From Byssochlamys sp. IMV 00236 (taxonomy: Eukaryota; Ascomycota; Eurotiomycetes; Eurotiales; Thermoascaceae), in contig MSJH02000820.1 in NCBI GenBank assembly GCA_001931875.2, positions 124,001 to 188,000 on the forward strand: a stretch of 64,000 bases of DNA, in the 5' to 3' direction. The position numbers and the translations under genes are program-made. Of this stretch, positions 29,838 to 45,785 are shown piece by piece. Within the stretch, counting starts at the first letter, position 1, and every line of letters starts with the position of its first letter. Below the pieces are notes generated by a model, which ran no database searches, was not told the DNA's origin, and saw nothing but the letters and a program-made list of their open reading frames with translations.

Positions 29838-31621
29838 ATGCCCGATCCAGCATCTTTACCACCTGAACTATTCGGGATGATCCTGCACGAGGTCATACGC
29901 CAAAATCGCGACAATCATGGTTCTCCCGAGAAGAGGTTCGACCCGGCATTATTGCCACTTGAAATACCCAGCAAGGACCTAGATGCTGCAGTCCGGCGTC
30001 TGCCGGACGCTCGTTCTGAAGAAAGACAACTTTCGGACCTTTGCCGGGTTGGAAAGCAGTGGAGGGATCTGGTACAACCAACGTTGTACGAAACGTTCAC
30101 ATATCGCGGAGAAAGGCAATCCTTAAGAAATCTCTGGCTCTACCTCCGAACGATACTCAGTCGCCCGGAACTTGCTTCATGCGTGAAGCATCTAGAAATT
30201 CGCGCATGGGGCTGCTGGGTTATTCCGTCAGACGTGGAGAAGCCGGAGAATCAGCTAACTCTCTCGCAGGCCGAGAGAGTCGTGCTCAAGGCCGCCATTG
30301 GTGACGCTGGTTTTAATGAGAAAGATGAATTCAACATGTTCTGGGCAATTGAAAAGAATNNNNNNNNNNNNNNNNNNNNATCTTGCTCACACGGCTGCCG
30401 AATGTGGAAAGCATTCAGGCTCACGTCCCGGCTTGGTGCTATTATCTCAGTGAGATCTTCAAAAAAGCCATTGAAAAAGAAGAGGAGGGCACAACGAATC
30501 GCAGTCCCAGGTATCGAGCTTTTCAGAAATTATCACGAGCGGAATTCTTCTGTGAGGGCTATCACTGCAATGACACTGGTCACCCGTGGGAGAGATACTA
30601 CGATCTTAATTTGGACTATCTATGGCCTGTGTTCTACCTGCCGCAACTGAAGGTATTGGGTCTCTACGATCTGAACCCGAGGGGCGCTGCAGCGATATTT
30701 GACAAAAATGCCCGACAGATATCGCCGGTGGTAGATTTGACGATTGTGCTCGATCATCCATTATCCGAAGAAAATGATGATCTTTGGACACTTCTTGATC
30801 TCCCGGAGACTCTCGACACGTTACGTCTCTCGGTGATGAAGACGTTGGAGACAGACCCTGTGACAACTTTGAAACGGAAACTGTGGCCGAGTTTAGATCG
30901 ATTCAAAGACCAGCTGTTTCATCTCGATTTGCATGAGCACGTGAACGAGTTTTGGTGTCCGCCGCCGATAGGTGCGTTTGGTGAAGAGGAAGAAGAACAA
31001 GACGACTACGACGATGACGATGACGATAGTTACGATAGTTACCAAGAAGAAAAAGAAAAGGTGGAGAAAAAACCAGTTTACTGCTGTCCATTACGGTCAT
31101 TTCTTTCTCTGAAACACCTTGCTGTTGTCCCAGATCTACTCCTTGGCGACCAGTGCAAGCATCAAAAATTGACCACCGGTTATCTCCGGGCACATCTGCC
31201 CAACCGATTAACAAAACTCACCCTTTACAGGTCTTGCTTCGCGAATTTTTTGTATCACGATTGGGACACTTCTCTAGAGGGTTACGTGCGTCGTCATGAA
31301 GACGAAGGTGGACCGATGGACAAGATCCTAATTAATGAGAGATTCGTCGATAGCGAGGGTAGTTCGATGTTTACACCCTATGGGTCGTTTGAAAAGACTG
31401 AAAAGGCTTGCCAGGAGCAAGGAATCGTTTTCCAAACTAGCACAGAGGCAGAACATGAACTTGAGAATGGTGGAAGATTAACCAAAGTATACACTGACAC
31501 CGAAAATATTCGTGGACATTTTGAATATATGACTACACTGCATCGGGATCCTAGGGCGTACAGCTGGAGCTCGACGGAACAAGGTTACGGTGCAATGACT
31601 TGGAGTACCATATGTATTTAG
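29838..31621 (+). CDS. F-box-like protein, interrupted by an assembly gap
   Basis: Fungal F-box/leucine-rich-type protein of the kind often found in expanded accessory families; a substrate adaptor for SCF ubiquitin ligase is the usual suggestion. It begins MPDPASLPPELFGMILHEVI, an F-box-like helix, and later has KQWRDLVQPTLYETFTYRGE. No intron is seen. The frame before the gap (174 codons, frame of 29838) and the frame after it (from 30380, ILLTRLPNVESIQAH) differ by one register, so the 20 placeholder Ns do not have the true length. The C-terminal part carries an acidic run (residues DDYDDDDDDSYD) and ends ...TWSTICI. Whether the intact gene is functional cannot be judged here. Confidence 0.72.
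30360..30379. other. Assembly gap (20 N)
   Basis: Twenty Ns inside the F-box gene. The coding frame shifts across them, so the gap size is nominal. Confidence 0.98.
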
Positions 31622-32093: not shown

Positions 32094-32612
32094 CTAGGAA
32101 TCAGCTTTTACCATTCCCATTCTTTTCAGCAAGCGAAGATGGTCACCCAGCGCAGCTAGATCGAGCTCTATATGTGATTCCAAACTCGATACACGTCCAT
32201 TTGACAATATTGGCAATCTCTGGATAATATGGCTGATTAATCTGTTTGAAGGATTAGAATGTTCCTTTAATGACAAGTAATATTTCGAAAGGCAGGAATC
32301 GAAACTGTTAAGGATTGAATAAGCTCACCTGTGGAAAGACGTGATGGACAACCTGATAGTTCAGTGATCCAGTCTCCATGGCCGTAATCCTGAGCTGCTT
32401 CAATTTGTAGTTAAACCCAGTCTACCGGTGTAATATCGTGATCACTAGCTCGAACCCATAATACTTCCTCGACAACATTGTTTGATTCGAAGACGCAGGG
32501 GGCGATCCAGTAAGTAAGCAGCTCCGTACATGAATAAGTAATCAGGACTCTTTGGACGCTAGTGGAGGAAAATACACCTTGAAGGAGAAGCATGACCAAG
32601 TTAACATTTCAA
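32094..32612 (-). pseudogene. Decayed membrane fatty-acid desaturase (C-terminal relic)
   Basis: Only the last third of a front-end-type fatty-acid desaturase remains. Reading down the minus strand: a membrane-helix remnant (LITYSCTELLTYWIAPCVF), then SNNVVEEVLW, then a segment DW-V-stop-LQIEAAQDYGH with an in-frame TAA at 32413-32411. A frameshift follows, then the third histidine box GSLNYQVVHHVFP with HH at 32346-32341. After a likely intron comes INQPYYPEIANIVKWTC, then another frameshift and a tail LAALGDHLRLLKRMG. I see no first or second histidine box upstream. Several independent lesions make this a pseudogene. The substrate of the ancestor (delta-5, delta-6 or sphingolipid type) is not resolvable. 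Confidence 0.8.
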
Positions 32613-33905
32613 CCGGGGGAGCTATCGTATGTTTTCGCGCCTCGAGCATAGTTCCTAGCTTAATATTGGGTTCTTATTATCAAAAACGACATATTTAGTA
32701 AAGTGATGATCTGGCTGCCCATCAAATTGATGACTAGAGGGCCCAATGAATATTGTATAGTATGAAAGGTTTCTCAAGCATGTCCCTAGTCCACGTAATC
32801 ACTCTGTAAATAATTCACTTTCAATCGTTGTGCGTCGAATTGAGTGTAAGAGTCACGCTGTGCCTGGGAAGGCACGTGGTTCTGTTGGACTTATAAGTCC
32901 GTAGTGGGTGCCGCGACGTTTCTCCTTCTCCTTCACCTTTCCCCTTCCCTCTCCGCAACAGCAGACACGTACGTGATGCACTAGATTTTTGTGTCCTTAT
33001 TTTTATTGAAATGTCTGGTCTGTCACAACCAGAGCAGCTTCTTTTATTATATTACACTAGTTCTTTTTGACCTTTGACTGAGTAGCAGATTCGATAACCA
33101 TGTGACCTATCTGGAGCGAAGCTCGCTGAGCTTGAATTCTCTAGCAACTAGCTCGGCCTATATGTCTCTGTGGATAGAGCTAGAAGGCGTGGGAGAAACC
33201 CGACAGGAAGTCTGCCTGTAGGCAGGCTCCGACAAGTTATGAGGATCATTCTCAATCGAAACTGGCCAACCTGATTGAACTTCCTAATTTCAAGTTCTTA
33301 ACTGAATTCTGTAAGTAAGCAGTGACCTTTGTTGCTATCAACGAGCTAGTATCGCTGACTGATAATTCAATATCTCATAGTCCTAACTTATGTGAGAATA
33401 TCTTCATTGCAATCTTCGTGGTTCGAGAGACAAGCTTGGCTAATAATAGGACTTATTGAAGAACAGACTATCTGAGAGTGGAAGCTTATTCTACCTGTTC
33501 TGGAAGCGCACTGAAGACCAATTGACTAATTAATAGAAAGAAAACTGAGAGTAGGTAAATCGTCCTGTAACTTACAAAATGCAGTCCGATGCTGACATAT
33601 GTCTCGCTTGAACTTCAAGACAATGGGCAAGCTAGTCTAGCGATCTATGAGCAGTAGAGCCCTGCTAATATGAAGTCTACTTGCTTTGAAATAGCCAGAA
33701 AACAAGGTGGATAGAAACAAAGGAAGGGTCGATGGAAAACGCTAATAGTCTAACTTTATTGCTGTCATTAGAATGGGAGCTCTCATCGTGTAAGTGTTCC
33801 TCTCCATAATGAGAAGAATTCTGTTAATGTATTCATTTTATATAGCCATAGGAACGGTAAGCAGCCAGGGTTGGGGTTCGAATGGACTAGCATTGACACA
33901 ATTAG
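32613..33905. other. AT-rich region 5' of the micro-exon gene, with possible upstream exons
   Basis: A perfect 14-bp palindrome GGACTTATAAGTCC at about 32888, TATA-like, is followed by a pyrimidine-rich tract at 32919-32956, as expected of a plus-strand promoter. Candidate small exons in phase with the zinc-knuckle exon lie at 33695-33706 (PENK) and 33772-33789 (NGSSHR). A separate frame-consistent set lies at 33184-33310, 33381-33391 and 33450-33533. None has a firm start codon, so the 5' end of the gene is unresolved. Confidence 0.35.
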
Positions 33906-35652
33906 TGTCGGCTGTGCCACCGACAGGGGCACAAGAAGGAAAAATGCCCCTTTAGGGCTGACGATAAAGTATATGATCCTTCACTTCAAAATACCTATAT
34001 GGTGATTTGTACTTCCATTGCTGATAGTTCAGTAGGCAACTGTATGTGATAAAACACTGAAGCTGTCACCACGTCAATCATAGTATACTAATTTTGGCAA
34101 ATTGTCGTGGGGACAGACGGCGGTTGAGTTTGTAAGCAAGGGTCTTACATTTGCCATGGAATTAATTAACAAAACATCGTTCTTCCAGGGAACGAAGAAA
34201 GTATGAAGCTCTACACAAAGATATCTCTTTAAATTGGGCAGCTAATAGGTTCGGAATGTAGTACTGGCAGAACGTGGCCCATGTAAGCATCCTTTGTACA
34301 CATTAACTAGGTTATAACACTGACTAATATATAATCAAGGATTCCAAACAGAAGTGGAAGGTACTTCATACTGAGCTTGTTTCGCGAGTATTATTAGACT
34401 GATATGCTCTTCTCTGATAGGGCCTCGACTCTCTGATCCAGGTCAGTATTATCTTTATAAATAAGCTTAGACAAGGCTTATTATATTGTATTATTACAGC
34501 ATATGATGGAGGAGAGAGATGTAAGAGGTCCTAAATGTATTCTTAAAGGTTAAACTAACTGACAATTGTCTGCAGGATGCTCGTGAAAAATACCTGGTAG
34601 AATTTATCACTTCCGTTCGACTGTGCGTTAGATGATTACTAACAAAGCTACCATATAAACATAGAAAGCGGAGAAAAAGCTGAAGGTCAGCATACATGAC
34701 AATTATACTTGTATATGGCCTTTCTGCTAATAATTGCTTAGGAACTAGAAAAGAAGGATGCAGTATGTTCTTTGGTAAGAATTCCGTATAACTCAACAAA
34801 GCTAACTTGAAATGATTTTATAGGACGCGGCGGCCCAGGGGCTGGCGACTATGTCTGGGGGGCACAACAGAGGCATGTCTGTTCGACAGATTTTCGAGAC
34901 AGATCGAAGCTTGCCCGTCGATCTGAGTCGGCGGTAAATATGTCTCTGATCTCGTTTCTGCAAGCTCTGGCAATGGTAGCTGGGCTACCTGCCAATCAGT
35001 GGAATGGGGATAGAATCCCGCTGCAAGCAGATTTTGGGGGCCCTGCTGGCAGCTTTATTGCTGTCACAGACGGCCAGCTCCAAAGTGTGACAGATAAACG
35101 GATTCTGGCACTCGTCGAGTGCAAGCGCTGGGAGAGGCACAGACACAGTCCTCAAGTCGAACTCCAAGAGACCGCACAAATGGTCTCCTGGATCAAGGAA
35201 TTCCCGGACCCCGTCCGAAGACCCTGGCGAGTACCACTCAATATGCCCTTGCGGGGAAATCTATTTAACGGATTAAGGCAAGCTCTTGTCTCCCAGGATG
35301 GCAAGGAGACATACGTGTCAATATTCGAGTACGACTGGGCCTGGGAAAGCTATATCAACGGCAGTCCGAGACCGATCAAGAAAGCTAACTTGAAATGATT
35401 TTATAGGACGCGGCGGCCCAGGGGCTGGCGACTATGTCTGGTGGTACCGGGGGTATGTATTTATCTATGGACTTTCAGTCTCACATGTCTCGTGCTGACC
35501 TTTTGATTAGAGGCAAGTAGCGAAGGTATGTACATGCTCAATCACGCGAAAAGATTAATGCCAGTTCAGTTCGGCTTACTGTGGACGGTGATAGCCTAGG
35601 GGCAGCGAATGGGAGACTTACATACTCCCAATTTGTCGAGATACTGAATTAG
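33906..35652 (+). CDS. Zinc-knuckle/coiled-coil gene with a micro-exon array (5' end unresolved)
   Basis: I do not recognise the family. Exons seen, all phase 0 and bounded by AG and GT: 33906-33968 (63 nt, CCHC zinc knuckle CRLCHRQGHKKEKC), 34036-34041, 34117-34131 (TAVEF), 34189-34200 (GTKK), 34271-34282 (NVAH). Six exons of exactly 21 nt follow: 34340-34360, 34421-34441, 34500-34520, 34576-34596, 34665-34685 and 34742-34762. They encode DSKQKWK, GLDSLIQ, HMMEERD, DAREKYL, KAEKKLK and ELEKKDA. Positions 2 and 6 of each block carry most of the hydrophobic residues, giving a coiled-coil register. The terminal exon starts at 34824 (DAAAQGLATMSGG) and stops at 34937. A duplicate terminal exon at 35407-35452 can splice to 35511-35525 and 35600-35652, ending SQFVEILN. 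Function is unknown; the zinc knuckle suggests nucleic-acid binding. Confidence 0.62.
34798..34858. repeat. 61-bp direct repeat, copy 1
   Basis: Identical over 61 bp to 35381-35441, offset 583 bp. It spans the 3' end of an intron, the TTATAG acceptor and the first 35 nt of the terminal exon. Confidence 0.95.
34940..35398 (+). pseudogene. PD-(D/E)XK-nuclease-like open frame, probable fragment
   Basis: A 152-codon frame lying almost wholly between the two 61-bp repeats; its last six codons (KKANLK, stop) come partly from repeat copy 2. The core TDKRILALVECKRW has the E-x-K of a PD-(D/E)XK fold, with QETAQMVSWIKEF after it and VSQDGKETYVSIFEYDWAW as a closing strand pair. The sequence just upstream in the other frame (IFETDRSLPVDLS) looks like the N-terminal part of the same domain, so a one-base frameshift near 34932 is likely. 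I read it as a domain fragment carried in by the duplication or insertion. The catalytic assignment rests on motif shape only. Confidence 0.5.
35381..35441. repeat. 61-bp direct repeat, copy 2
   Basis: Perfect second copy of 34798-34858; it regenerates the splice acceptor at 35406 and the start of the terminal exon. Confidence 0.95.
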
Positions 35653-35847
35653 AAATCTAAAGTTGTCCTCCAGGATCATATGTGTTGAAAGTAAGATAGC
35701 AACCATCGTATGACGTGAGGTGAAAAGACATTATACTAACCGTCACATAGATTTCTTTTCAGCTTTTCTTTTTTTTTCATTATCTTTATATATTGTTAAA
35801 TAAGCAGCAATGGAGCTTTTCTCGATGAAGATCATTTCTCCCTCCTC

Positions 35848-37398
35848 TTATTTCATGCCATGATTGTACATATGAGAGTAAGACTCTTTCAGCCGCCAGC
35901 CATCCAACAATGGCCTACGTCTCAACTCGTTGTCCCAACGTCCGATGTGGCTTTTGCAGTTCAATGACAGCATGCGCTGTCCATGTCCTGGCAATCTGAC
36001 CAACTCACGGAGGAAGACGTCTCTCCATCTGCCATCCAATCTGTCTGAAGAAAAGAATTTGCCGTCAGGCTGCGCTGGACGCCCCAAGGAAGGATCCCAG
36101 TATTTTCCATAATCTAGTCCAAGATACAACAATCGTTTGTAATCCCGAAGACAGAGGCCCAGGTAACCAGAAAACCAAAGATCGCGTCTTTCGAGATCCA
36201 ATATGCTAAAGCTAGGGAGACGACTCTCCCTCTCCCATACCGACCAATAGACGTCTCTATACTCCGAGTTAGGCTTCTTCGTCCAGCTCGCTGCCTGGCC
36301 CCAGTAATAAGAGGGTGTGTCTTCTGAGGGCGCTGGGTCTTCGAACTTCCAACCAGCAGTCTCCTTGAAACTGAGTGCGAACTTGGACCGGGCTTTGGTA
36401 ACCAATGCTTTCCGTTCCTGGCTGGATATGGCCGTAAAGAATTTCACTGGTTCACAACCGAGAAATTCGTAAACCGCTGCTGATATACAATTCATCTCTT
36501 CAACCCTGTGTGATATGATCTTGGCATCTTCTTGTTCTTCTGCGATTATGCTTCCGCTGAGCTGCCGTATTCTTTTGTTATATTGACGGAGGTCAGGATC
36601 TTGCACAGTAGCTTTAGAATGGACTGCTTCAATATTCTAGTACATAAATAATCGCCAGAGTGCTCGCTCAATGCGAAACCTTTCGACCCATGATGGGGAC
36701 CACCAGGCGACGGGCTTGAAGAATACTCCAGGCCGGAACTGTTTCAATGTATGGACGTCACTGAAATTTCTTCCGTCCACGGGACTGACAAAAATGAGTT
36801 CATGAATATTTTGCAGAAGAGTGGTAAAACAGATATGTCGGAGATGCTCAATGCGATAAGCTGTCAGCAACACGTATCGCGGACCCGAGGTACCAGTTAT
36901 GAAGGACAAGGACGGAGCAGCCTTGGTGAGTAAGTCCTTAGGCAGAGCGCCGTATCTAGTGACTGTTTCTGATAATCGACGTGAATTGAAACCAATCCGG
37001 ATGTCAAGCGAGCCTAAAAGAGAAATCATGCGAGCTAAAGGCTGAAAGTCTGGTATTGAGCGCTTGATGACCTTATCCAAAATGTGAGGAGCATCCATTT
37101 TAAATACCGCATTAGCTTGTGCTGATGCACATATGAATCTATAGAGCGATGGCAGATCCGGTACATTGCGAAGAATGATCCGCAATACTTCCGGAGGAAG
37201 ATGGGCGAATGTATTATTGGCCATGTTCTCTGGCTCGTAGGAGCTGTCAGAATGCAATGGAGGGGGTGGATCTGACTGTTGACACTTCTCGATGTGCGCG
37301 TCAAGTTTCTGTGTGAGAGTCGTGACTTGCTGTGTTAATAGTGCAAGTGCTGCAGTCAGATCGACGGTGCTGCTGTTTGCAGCTGATGTTGAGGCCAT
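35848..37398 (-). pseudogene. F-box protein gene with an in-frame stop
   Basis: Two open frames in the same register, 37398-36637 and 36636-35848, are separated by a single TAG (36639-36637, after RALWRLFMY). Joined they would be about 516 aa, a normal size for the fungal F-box family. The N-terminal half has a short coiled coil (LLTQQVTTLTQKLDAHIEK) and an F-box, FAHLPPEVLRIILRNVPDLP. The second half has NIEAVHSKATVQDPDLRQYN directly after the stop and a W-rich domain (YYWGQAASW, VYWSVWERE). I tested splicing around the TAG; the nearby GT...AG choices give other stops. A CAG or TGG changed to TAG would explain it. Read-through or a truncated functional protein cannot be excluded. Confidence 0.7.
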
Positions 37399-43728: not shown

Positions 43729-45785
43729 TCATCTCGCAATCGCACCACCAATCATCTCACCGATCTGACTGAAGAACACACCCTTGAGAACGGCCTCTCC
43801 TTCCTCAATGGCCCAGTGGCCCGCTTCGATGAGGCGTTTCTTCCATTTCTCACGCTCCTCTTCGTGGAGGTCTTCCCATTTCCGAGCTGTTTCTTGCTGG
43901 ATGAGCGCTTCGGCGCCCTGGGCGGTATATGCGGAGATGGCGGTTCCTTCGTCCCGGACGAAGATGGCGGGGGGTTGGGGGGCCGTGTCGGAGGCGAGGT
44001 CGATTGCTCCGGCGGCGCGGCGTGCGGAAAGGAGCTTGCGGAGGGATTCGTCTTGGACTTTGATCTGGGGGATGGGGGAAGGGGGAGTAATGTCTGGTAC
44101 TACGCGGCCGGGGATGTGGTGATCGAACATGTAGGGACGAGCGATCCATGCGCGCACGCGGGGAGAGAGCCAGTCTGTAGCGCCCAGATATGGAGGAGTG
44201 CCGCCGCGGATTTCGGTGAAGGCTTGCAGGAGGAAGCAGGCCAGGACGACGACGAGGAGGGCGATGAAGCTGGAGAAGATGGTGTCCCAAGTCTCCGGGT
44301 GGCCGGGCTTGACGAGGAGATAGCGGGGAGTACGAGATGGAGGTGGCCATGGAATAAGAGGGAATGTGTGGACGACGACGGTATTGCCCATGCTGACGGA
44401 GGCTAGCTTGAGATATTGAGGACCGACAGCCGCCGTGACCGGGTGAGCAGGAGGGGTGAACGTCGAGAAGCAGAGCTTGGTCATGGAGAATGGATGGACA
44501 TCCCGTAGAGTGGTGTATGGCCGTGGTGCACTGTAGCCTTTCTTCGGGCTGTAATCGAGAGTATAGACCCCAATCGACTGATCGCTACCGGACACAGCCA
44601 GAACGTACTGGCGTTCTTTTGTCTCGTTTTCTCCCAGATTGGATACATCCAGCCCCAATCCGATCTTCATCGATCTGGGCAGCTTCCGACGGCGAATGAC
44701 AGTCGCCTGGGCAGGCCCAGAAGGAGGTATAGACAACACCGCCAGCTCACATCCAGATCGATTCGGGGCGTTCTGAAGCACTAGTACAGCCCACGGAGAG
44801 AGGAGGCGCAAGGCACGCAATTTCGACCTCGTTTTGGTTTTCGGCATTGTATAGACGGACCGTATCTCCGGTGAAGCATTCGACTTGCTCTTGGACGAGA
44901 TATCGAATATGGAGACCTGGACACCATCGGTGTACGCAACTCGGAAGTTGCCGTCCTCCAAATCAATAATATCAAGATCCTCTGCTTCCTCCCCAGCGCC
45001 CAGTTGTATCCGGGCTAGAATGTCCGACTCGCTCGGCGTCGTAGTCACATTGAACAGCACAATCTCCCCGGAGGGTGCCAGTCCCGTCGCGACGGCCCCA
45101 ATGCGCGGAGCATCTGGTCCCCTCCACGGCGACAGCCTCAAGATCCGCTGATACGTATCGATCTTCTGGCCCTTGGCGGGCTTTGTAGTCGGCTTCCTGA
45201 ACAACGACGCTCGCGACAATGGCACCGTCTTCTGCTGCTTAGAGACCGCGTTGGCCGACGTCGTCTCCTTCTCTACCTCTCCTTCTGCATTTGCTTCCGG
45301 TTCCGTCACCGCTGCTGTACTCTTCCTGGGAGGATACGCGACCCGAAACGATCGTAAATGCTGATTATTCCCCTCTAGCTGCTCCTTCTGGGAGCTATTG
45401 ATCCCCGCAAACGCAACGACCGACTCATCGTCCGCATGCGCAGCCGCCAGAGAAGTAACCGAGTCCTCGTCGCGCGAAAGCTCAATGTCCACGACTTCTG
45501 CGATCTCATTGCGTTTGGAGGTATCGAGGAGAGCCTATTTCGTCCCATGGCCTGTTAGTCCAACGATGCCCGGATTGTTTGCGTCATCGAGAGCGATGAG
45601 AGAAATAGAAAAGAAGAAAACAAAACAAAGAAAGGGTCGAGACTTGCGATCTTGTTGCCAACACCACTGCGACCTTCTCCTCCGCCACCGCCGACTAGCA
45701 GGAAGCCATTATTTCGCGGGTCGAAGTCGGCTGCGAACAGCGGACATGAGAGGGTGATCTTCGCGGAAGCGATGTTCGGCGCCAT
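43729..45785 (-). CDS. sec12: Sec12-like guanine nucleotide exchange factor for Sar1
   Basis: ER membrane WD40 protein that activates Sar1 to start COPII coat assembly. Two exons, 45785-45648 and 45534-43729, give 647 aa. It begins MAPNIASAKITLSCPLFAAD, and the loop FLLVGGGGGEGRSGVGNKI carries the conserved GGGG(G)xGxxG turn of the Sec12/PREB family. The beta-propeller fills roughly residues 1-440; a single transmembrane helix TIFSSFIALLVVVLACFLL is at about 463-482, followed by a lumenal tail of about 165 residues. The 113-nt intron begins GCAAGT and ends TAG. The only GT option next to it (GTCTCG) breaks the frame, whereas the GC-AG splice yields NKIALLDTSKRNEIAEV. The topology fits Sec12. 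Confidence 0.85.

Follow-up and report, generated by a model that had tools for sequence, protein, structure and literature searches.

Genomic setting of the array

The window, which is the whole stretch of 64,000 nucleotides analysed, lies on contig C817 of an assembly (G000) of 47.4 Mb in 840 contigs and carries an array of seven consecutive 21-nt blocks in phase 0, separated by gaps of 57, 60, 58, 55, 68, and 56 nt, with a start-to-start spacing of 76-89 nt. The first-pass annotation had described six of these blocks with introns of 60, 58, 55, 68, and 56 nt; the intron lengths and the coordinates, AG/GT neighbours, and peptides of all six blocks were found to be exact on recheck, and the observation is confirmed with one more block added. 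The putative exons are given below together with their agreement with two deposited Paecilomyces variotii gene models (DTO164E3_7803 and DTO166G4_574) and, for most of them, their selection by a splice-chain program.

34262-34282, + strand: 21-nt exon 1, YWQNVAH; 7/7 residues in DTO164E3_7803 and DTO166G4_574; codon score +3.0
34340-34360, + strand: 21-nt exon 2, DSKQKWK; 6/7 residues in both models; coding-like codons
34421-34441, + strand: 21-nt exon 3, GLDSLIQ; 7/7 residues in both models; coding-like codons; splice-chain pick
34500-34520, + strand: 21-nt exon 4, HMMEERD; 7/7 residues in both models; coding-like codons; splice-chain pick
34576-34596, + strand: 21-nt exon 5, DAREKYL; 6/7 residues in DTO164E3_7803 and 7/7 in DTO166G4_574; coding-like codons; splice-chain pick
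34665-34685, + strand: 21-nt exon 6, KAEKKLK; 7/7 residues in DTO164E3_7803, missing from DTO166G4_574; splice-chain pick
34742-34762, + strand: 21-nt exon 7, ELEKKDA; 7/7 residues in DTO164E3_7803, in another frame in DTO166G4_574; splice-chain pick

The additional block, exon 1, stands in the context gtag / TACTGGCAGAACGTGGCCCAT / gtaagc and encodes YWQNVAH. The donors of exon 2 (GTACTT at 34361) and exon 5 (GTAGAA at 34597) are weak, and exon 2 has an alternative in-frame acceptor at 34352, besides the one at 34340, which would reduce it to 9 nt. Taken together, the seven putative phase-0 exons have the make-up of a micro-exon gene, namely several internal exons of at most 36 nt with lengths in multiples of three.

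A Sec12-like protein encoded nearby (window 43732-45492) shares 99% identity with a P. variotii protein and 86-87% identity with proteins of P. lecythidis and P. variotii No. 5 among the best 120 of 640 matches, which makes the source P. variotii or a species close to it. The P. variotii genome is roughly 30 Mb, so that the present assembly is larger and may include repeats or foreign contigs. The use of a second haplotype within the 47-Mb assembly as an outgroup was considered and dropped; the Sec12-like gene is single-copy. The open reading frames flanking the array (29838-31621 and 35848-37398) are by eye presumably of a fungal F-box type, and the two at 35848-37398 returned no Pfam match. 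Window positions 33108-33234 are occupied by a dispersed element about 130 bp long, which is present in many copies and recurs on many contigs and both strands; by its size it would be SINE- or MITE-like, and it accounts for 38 of the 40 matches to the query 32900-34340 that were scored in the genome (76 candidates). An RNA family or a tRNA-derived structure was ruled out, with no Rfam match up to an E-value of 1 across 32400-36000 and no tRNA found within the 64-kb window.

The putative zinc-knuckle exon and the small candidate exons upstream

The following features were recognised upstream of the array, together with one related fragment elsewhere in the assembly.

33906-33968, + strand: 63-nt zinc-knuckle exon coding CRLCHRQGHKKEKCPFRADDK; putative, from the CCHC pattern C-x2-C-x4-H-x4-C and the comparison with contig C816
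34036-34041, + strand: candidate 6-nt exon (AT); splice-chain program only
34117-34131, + strand: candidate 15-nt exon (TAVEF); splice-chain program
34189-34200, + strand: candidate 12-nt exon (GTKK); splice-chain program, or alternatively the end of a first exon from the ATG at 34156 (MELINKTSFFQGTKK)
G000:C816:149284-149520, - strand: truncated paralogue of the knuckle exon and both flanking introns, matching window 33807-34041

The CCHC pattern is formed by CRLCHRQGHKKEKC and is conserved in the paralogous fragment on C816, which is 237 bp long, 83% identical, and covers the knuckle exon; the only Pfam profile to respond was AIR2-like_ZnK4, at an E-value of 0.55 and 10.8 bits, below its cut-off of 27. 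Between the two copies the exon has 12 base differences, by which nine codons are changed synonymously and two are not; 20,000 random sets of 12 changes gave no case with as few altered residues, a pattern which indicates that the exon is under purifying selection. By eye, the IGT codons preceding the knuckle exon likewise show only synonymous differences from the C816 copy, and the intervening intron is one base different in length with the frame kept. From the excess of synonymous changes, the IGT codons, and the intron length shift that leaves the frame intact, it is very probable that the knuckle is a genuine internal exon. The 28 nt from position 33969 are identical in the C816 copy, although the knuckle exon itself differs at 12 of 63 bases, and this intron start may be under a constraint of its own. 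The homology to C816 ends at 34041 and is thus uninformative on the array.

Small exons of 6, 15, 12, and 12 nt had been proposed ahead of the array; the first three are retained as candidates, and the last (NVAH) is better read as the end of the 21-nt exon YWQNVAH, because both P. variotii models read ...GTKK-YWQNVAH-DSKQ... at this point. That the knuckle and the array belong to one transcript is what we infer from the compatible chain of the 6-, 15-, and 12-nt candidate exons. In the alternative reading the array would belong to a gene of its own, with its start at MELINKTSFFQ (34156), where both deposited models start. The putative knuckle would bind nucleic acids.

Chance expectation and coding signal

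A chain was defined as a series of stop-free phase-0 AG-N21-GT blocks with gaps of 45-90 nt. The longest such chain in the window comprised seven blocks on the + strand and three on the - strand, whereas for control block lengths of 15, 18, 24, 27, and 30 nt the longest chain was three or four on either strand. Single stop-free AG-N21-GT blocks occur often, with 191 on the + strand of the window. In 150 simulated windows of 64 kb (order-3 Markov, one strand) the longest chain was five, found in three windows, and six blocks were reached in none. Elsewhere in the same genome, both strands of 29 loci not on contig C817 were scanned (96,847 bases, with some overlap among the loci); two of these loci had a chain of four, and none a longer one. 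When a branch point was required the observed chain shrank to four and the simulated maximum was three, reached in 4 of 150 windows.

For the codon scores, nine long ORF stretches within the window served as the training set, with local non-coding DNA as the contrast. The scores of all seven 21-nt exons were positive and summed to 23.7, whereas 3,027 null blocks from simulated non-coding DNA had a mean score of -2.75 and sums of seven reached at least 23.7 in 0 of 200,000 draws; the two other frames of the joined array sequence scored -38 and -24. The splice-chain program, which is crude and uses splice weights set by hand, recovered six of the seven blocks with exact borders and cut exon 2 to 9 nt via the acceptor at 34352. 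Its score was 45.2 at an intron penalty of -11, against a maximum of 23.5 over 60 simulations; at a penalty of -14 only exons 4-7 were retained and 2 of 60 simulations scored as high, and at -17 no array exon was retained. Chance is a poor explanation for the seven-block array, and the 21-nt blocks look coding and real, with their splicing predicted.

Deposited gene models and the search for relatives

A protein search with the joined peptide returned DTO164E3_7803 (P0001, 113 aa; E-value 1.6e-21; one match of three candidates), which runs unbroken across all seven exons with 47 of 49 residues identical and reads MELINKTSFFQGTKK-YWQNVAH-DSKQQWK-GLDSLIQ-HMMEERD-DAHEKYL-KAEKKLK-ELEKKDA-... A second search (one match of 90 candidates) returned DTO166G4_574 (P0002, 237 aa), which contains the first five exons with 34 of 35 residues identical, then reads through the donor at 34597 as VEFITSVRL, later enters the ORF of an insert described below, and leaves exons 6 and 7 unused in the array frame. 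By eye VEFITSVRL is also encoded by the window's own intron at 34597, and the intron sequence after exon 5 is present in DTO166G4, because the model reads these residues there. Both models begin with MELINKTSFFQ / MELINKTSFFQGTKK, of which the splice-chain program treats MELINKTSFFQ as intron. DTO164E3_7803 continues after the array with a longer Ala/Glu-rich stretch and without the insert, whereas DTO166G4_574 carries the insert.

Both sequences evidently represent the same gene as the array locus. They are automatic and partial predictions rather than transcripts, and each takes presumed intron as protein at one end, so that the models of the two strains disagree. The cross-strain comparison rests on these two protein models, and strain-level identity alone cannot separate exon from intron, because the presumed intron pieces are conserved between the strains too. 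It had been claimed that no ORF-based caller would find this gene; this holds for plain ORF lists, but the two P. variotii models contain five or seven of the exons.

Neither protein search returned a relative outside P. variotii (one match of three and one of 90 candidates) or an annotated protein of the JGI P. variotii strain. The lack of relatives outside P. variotii carries little weight, because annotation easily goes wrong for genes of this kind and the search requires shared five-residue words and a similar length. At the DNA level the array has no other copy in this genome, the segment 34300-34880 matching only itself and the flank copy described below. A degenerate pattern of exon 4 with at most three mismatches matched once in the genome, at exon 4 itself (control, 0), and DTO164E3_7803 gave two weak matches to the genome, both at the array locus. 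A weak match on contig C809 (E-value 0.07) lies within an open frame of 1,236 residues.

The predicted coiled coil

Hydrophobic residues had been noted at position 6 (a) and position 2 (d) of each exon, and this was borne out, imperfectly: the residues at the d position of exons 1-7 are W, S, L, M, A, A, and L and those at the a position are A, W, I, R, Y, L, and D, so that R and D occupy two a sites and S one d site. The joined 49-mer has a hydrophobic period of 3.5 residues, as in the heptads of a parallel coiled coil, which was equally strong in 8 of 10,000 shuffles, the strongest period being 3.6. An AlphaFold2 monomer model of DTO164E3_7803, computed with no alignment, consists of one helix over residues 6-88 with a mean pLDDT above 90 over residues 11-60 and a low pTM (0.38). 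Pfam searches of the joined peptide gave five matches, all of them sub-threshold, the best being HrpJ (E-value 0.0051, 17.6 bits against a cut-off of 25). The predicted coil would be expected to oligomerise. Because each putative exon is in phase 0 and one heptad long, skipping of one of them would retain both the frame and the heptad register, as had been pointed out.

The duplication and insert downstream

Downstream of exon 7 the next exon lies within a direct duplication that is split by an insert.

34793-34861, + strand: 69-bp duplication, first copy; 97% identical to 35376-35444
34824-34936, + strand: first copy of the putative next exon, DAAAQGLATMSGG, running on into the insert as far as a stop; sequence and splice-chain analysis
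34862-35375, + strand: insert, a fragment of a dispersed repeat or gene family; seven further matching places in the genome
35376-35444, + strand: 69-bp duplication, second copy, with the same acceptor; 97% identical to 34793-34861
35407-35452, + strand: putative next exon, second copy, DAAAQGLATMSGGTG, donor GTATGT; splice sites and model comparison
35511-35525, + strand: candidate following exon (EASSE); canonical sites, DTO164E3_7803 having GEASGRG here

The insert is about 0.5 kb long and its copies, on contigs C654 (locus L030), C711, C820, C693, C824, and C807, are 70-91% identical, the best (91%) being the one on C654, where it lies within an ORF of 252 residues. The direct flank duplication of 69 bp is long for a transposon target duplication. 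Since each copy of the duplication keeps the same acceptor, the gene may have two 3' ends, one running into the insert to an early stop and one passing the insert to GTGEASSE... The gene in this strain could be impaired by the adjoining insert.

Proposed mechanism and alternative explanations

In the reading that we favour, at a probability of about 0.7, the locus is a real, spliced P. variotii-like gene whose coiled coil is cut into seven heptad exons, the lengths of which have most probably been kept by tolerance to skipping. It is supported by the computed evidence from the blocks, the coding signal, the periodicity, the presence of the peptide in the models of two strains, and the selection on the knuckle exon, and all exons would lie on one transcript. 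The short phase-0 introns between the heptad exons (55-68 nt) would split the coil so that each exon supplies heptad positions c-d-e-f-g-a-b. In filamentous fungi the pairing of splice sites is considered to take place across short introns, which allows very short exons to be joined. Such intron-wise pairing would join the tiny exons into a 49-residue amphipathic helix in which all seven heptads are normally included and which a CCHC zinc knuckle would precede. A skipped exon would cost one heptad while the frame and the a/d register were kept, and the likeliest reason for the persistence of the exact length of 21 nt is that the loss of an exon then takes out one whole heptad in this way, so that slips in splicing are tolerated; the same length could also set the length of the coil.

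It is possible, though unlikely, that the exons of a real array are regulated cassettes and that isoforms with fewer heptads tune the length of the coil. Their common phase and length would make skipping harmless by design, the in-frame acceptor at 34352 and the weak donors at 34361 and 34597 offer places for such choices, and switching of fungal micro-exons is described for the Trichoderma Xlr2 and Tuber nank genes; but the only complete gene model, DTO164E3_7803, includes all seven exons, and the properties of exon length do not by themselves show use. We hold it equally doubtful that the gene is a splice-tunable molecular ruler, i.e., a rod changed in length by whole heptads through exon skipping and attached to a nucleic-acid-binding zinc knuckle.

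The equal lengths might instead be the memory of a unit of about 80 bp, exon plus intron, from which the array arose by tandem duplication, as the regular spacing would suggest. In-register identity among the exons was matched by 10 of 2,000 plain base shuffles, which ignore codon structure, and this low count is explained by codon structure; the identity is 0.331 against 0.314 in codon shuffles, of which 915 of 5,000 were as high. For whole exon-intron units 34 of 200 shuffles aligned as well. The earlier suggestion of exon gain by duplication was thus not sustained, tandem duplication was rejected as the origin with no similarity left past codon structure, and we consider it improbable; if it did make the exons, the event was long ago. 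Introner-like introns were likewise rejected, 34300-34880 not being repeated elsewhere in the genome.

Quite unlikely, in our view, is a decaying gene in which proper splicing has been lost and the exons are remnants. The insert and flank duplication just 3' of the array (the insert also being found in DTO166G4), the weak donors, and the truncated paralogue on C816 would fit such decay, but all seven blocks are open with coding-like codons, the duplicated acceptor gives an intact path past the insert, and the DTO164E3 protein is without the insert.

That the blocks arose by accident in intergenic DNA and were picked up by a reader and by automatic gene callers alike is very improbable. Single blocks are frequent, the array was selected from a reading of many windows, and conservation between strains spans presumed intron pieces too; against this stand seven consecutive blocks, their codon use, their heptad period, and the joining of all seven in a deposited model.

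Relation to known micro-exon genes and implications

The spliced gene with a heptad-cut coiled coil, to which we return as the preferred reading, would be a fungal micro-exon gene with heptad-quantised exons, micro-exon genes as such being already known. In the literature searched, which covers mostly journals other than subscription titles, no description of an array of heptad-sized exons came up. The micro-exon genes (MEGs) of Schistosoma resemble the array in having a coding region of many tiny exons with lengths in multiples of three, and differ from it in that the seven exons here share one length equal to a structural repeat, and in a fungus. Schistosoma MEGs have exons of varied lengths and mostly secreted, disordered products, with the signal peptide in a longer first exon.

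Among fungi, micro-exon work in Schizosaccharomyces pombe and Trichoderma is cited in PMC11121469. The Trichoderma virens gene Xlr2 described there, like the array gene, comes from a filamentous ascomycete and has a micro-exon, functional in Xlr2, but this is one lone switch exon, in the gene of a Zn2Cys6 transcription factor, rather than an array. According to PMC10197012, PMC3689799, and PMC4986451, nank (NACHT-ANK) of Tuber melanosporum, likewise from an ascomycete, has many micro-exons that keep the frame and can be alternatively spliced, and unlike the 21-nt exons these are codon-sized (3 nt) and lie in NLR receptors; the joined peptide had no Pfam match to NACHT or NB-ARC, by which fungal NLRs are recognised. 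Human TNNT3 offers a series of in-phase small exons, alternatively spliced, in a gene with a heptad-repeat domain, but in PMC2447309 these cassette exons lie apart from the heptad domain and are not described as one heptad each. The portions available on schistosome MEGs, Tuber nank, and Xlr2 describe no uniform array of one heptad per exon.

The two P. variotii models show that gene catalogues can mangle micro-exon genes, since the models of two strains disagree on one locus and both read presumed intron as protein. If the predicted reading is true, the question of whether exon length is held by tolerance to skipping or serves a tunable coil length becomes testable, and if transcripts confirm the array, exon borders would fall exactly at the coiled-coil repeat, seven consecutive times, in an ascomycete.
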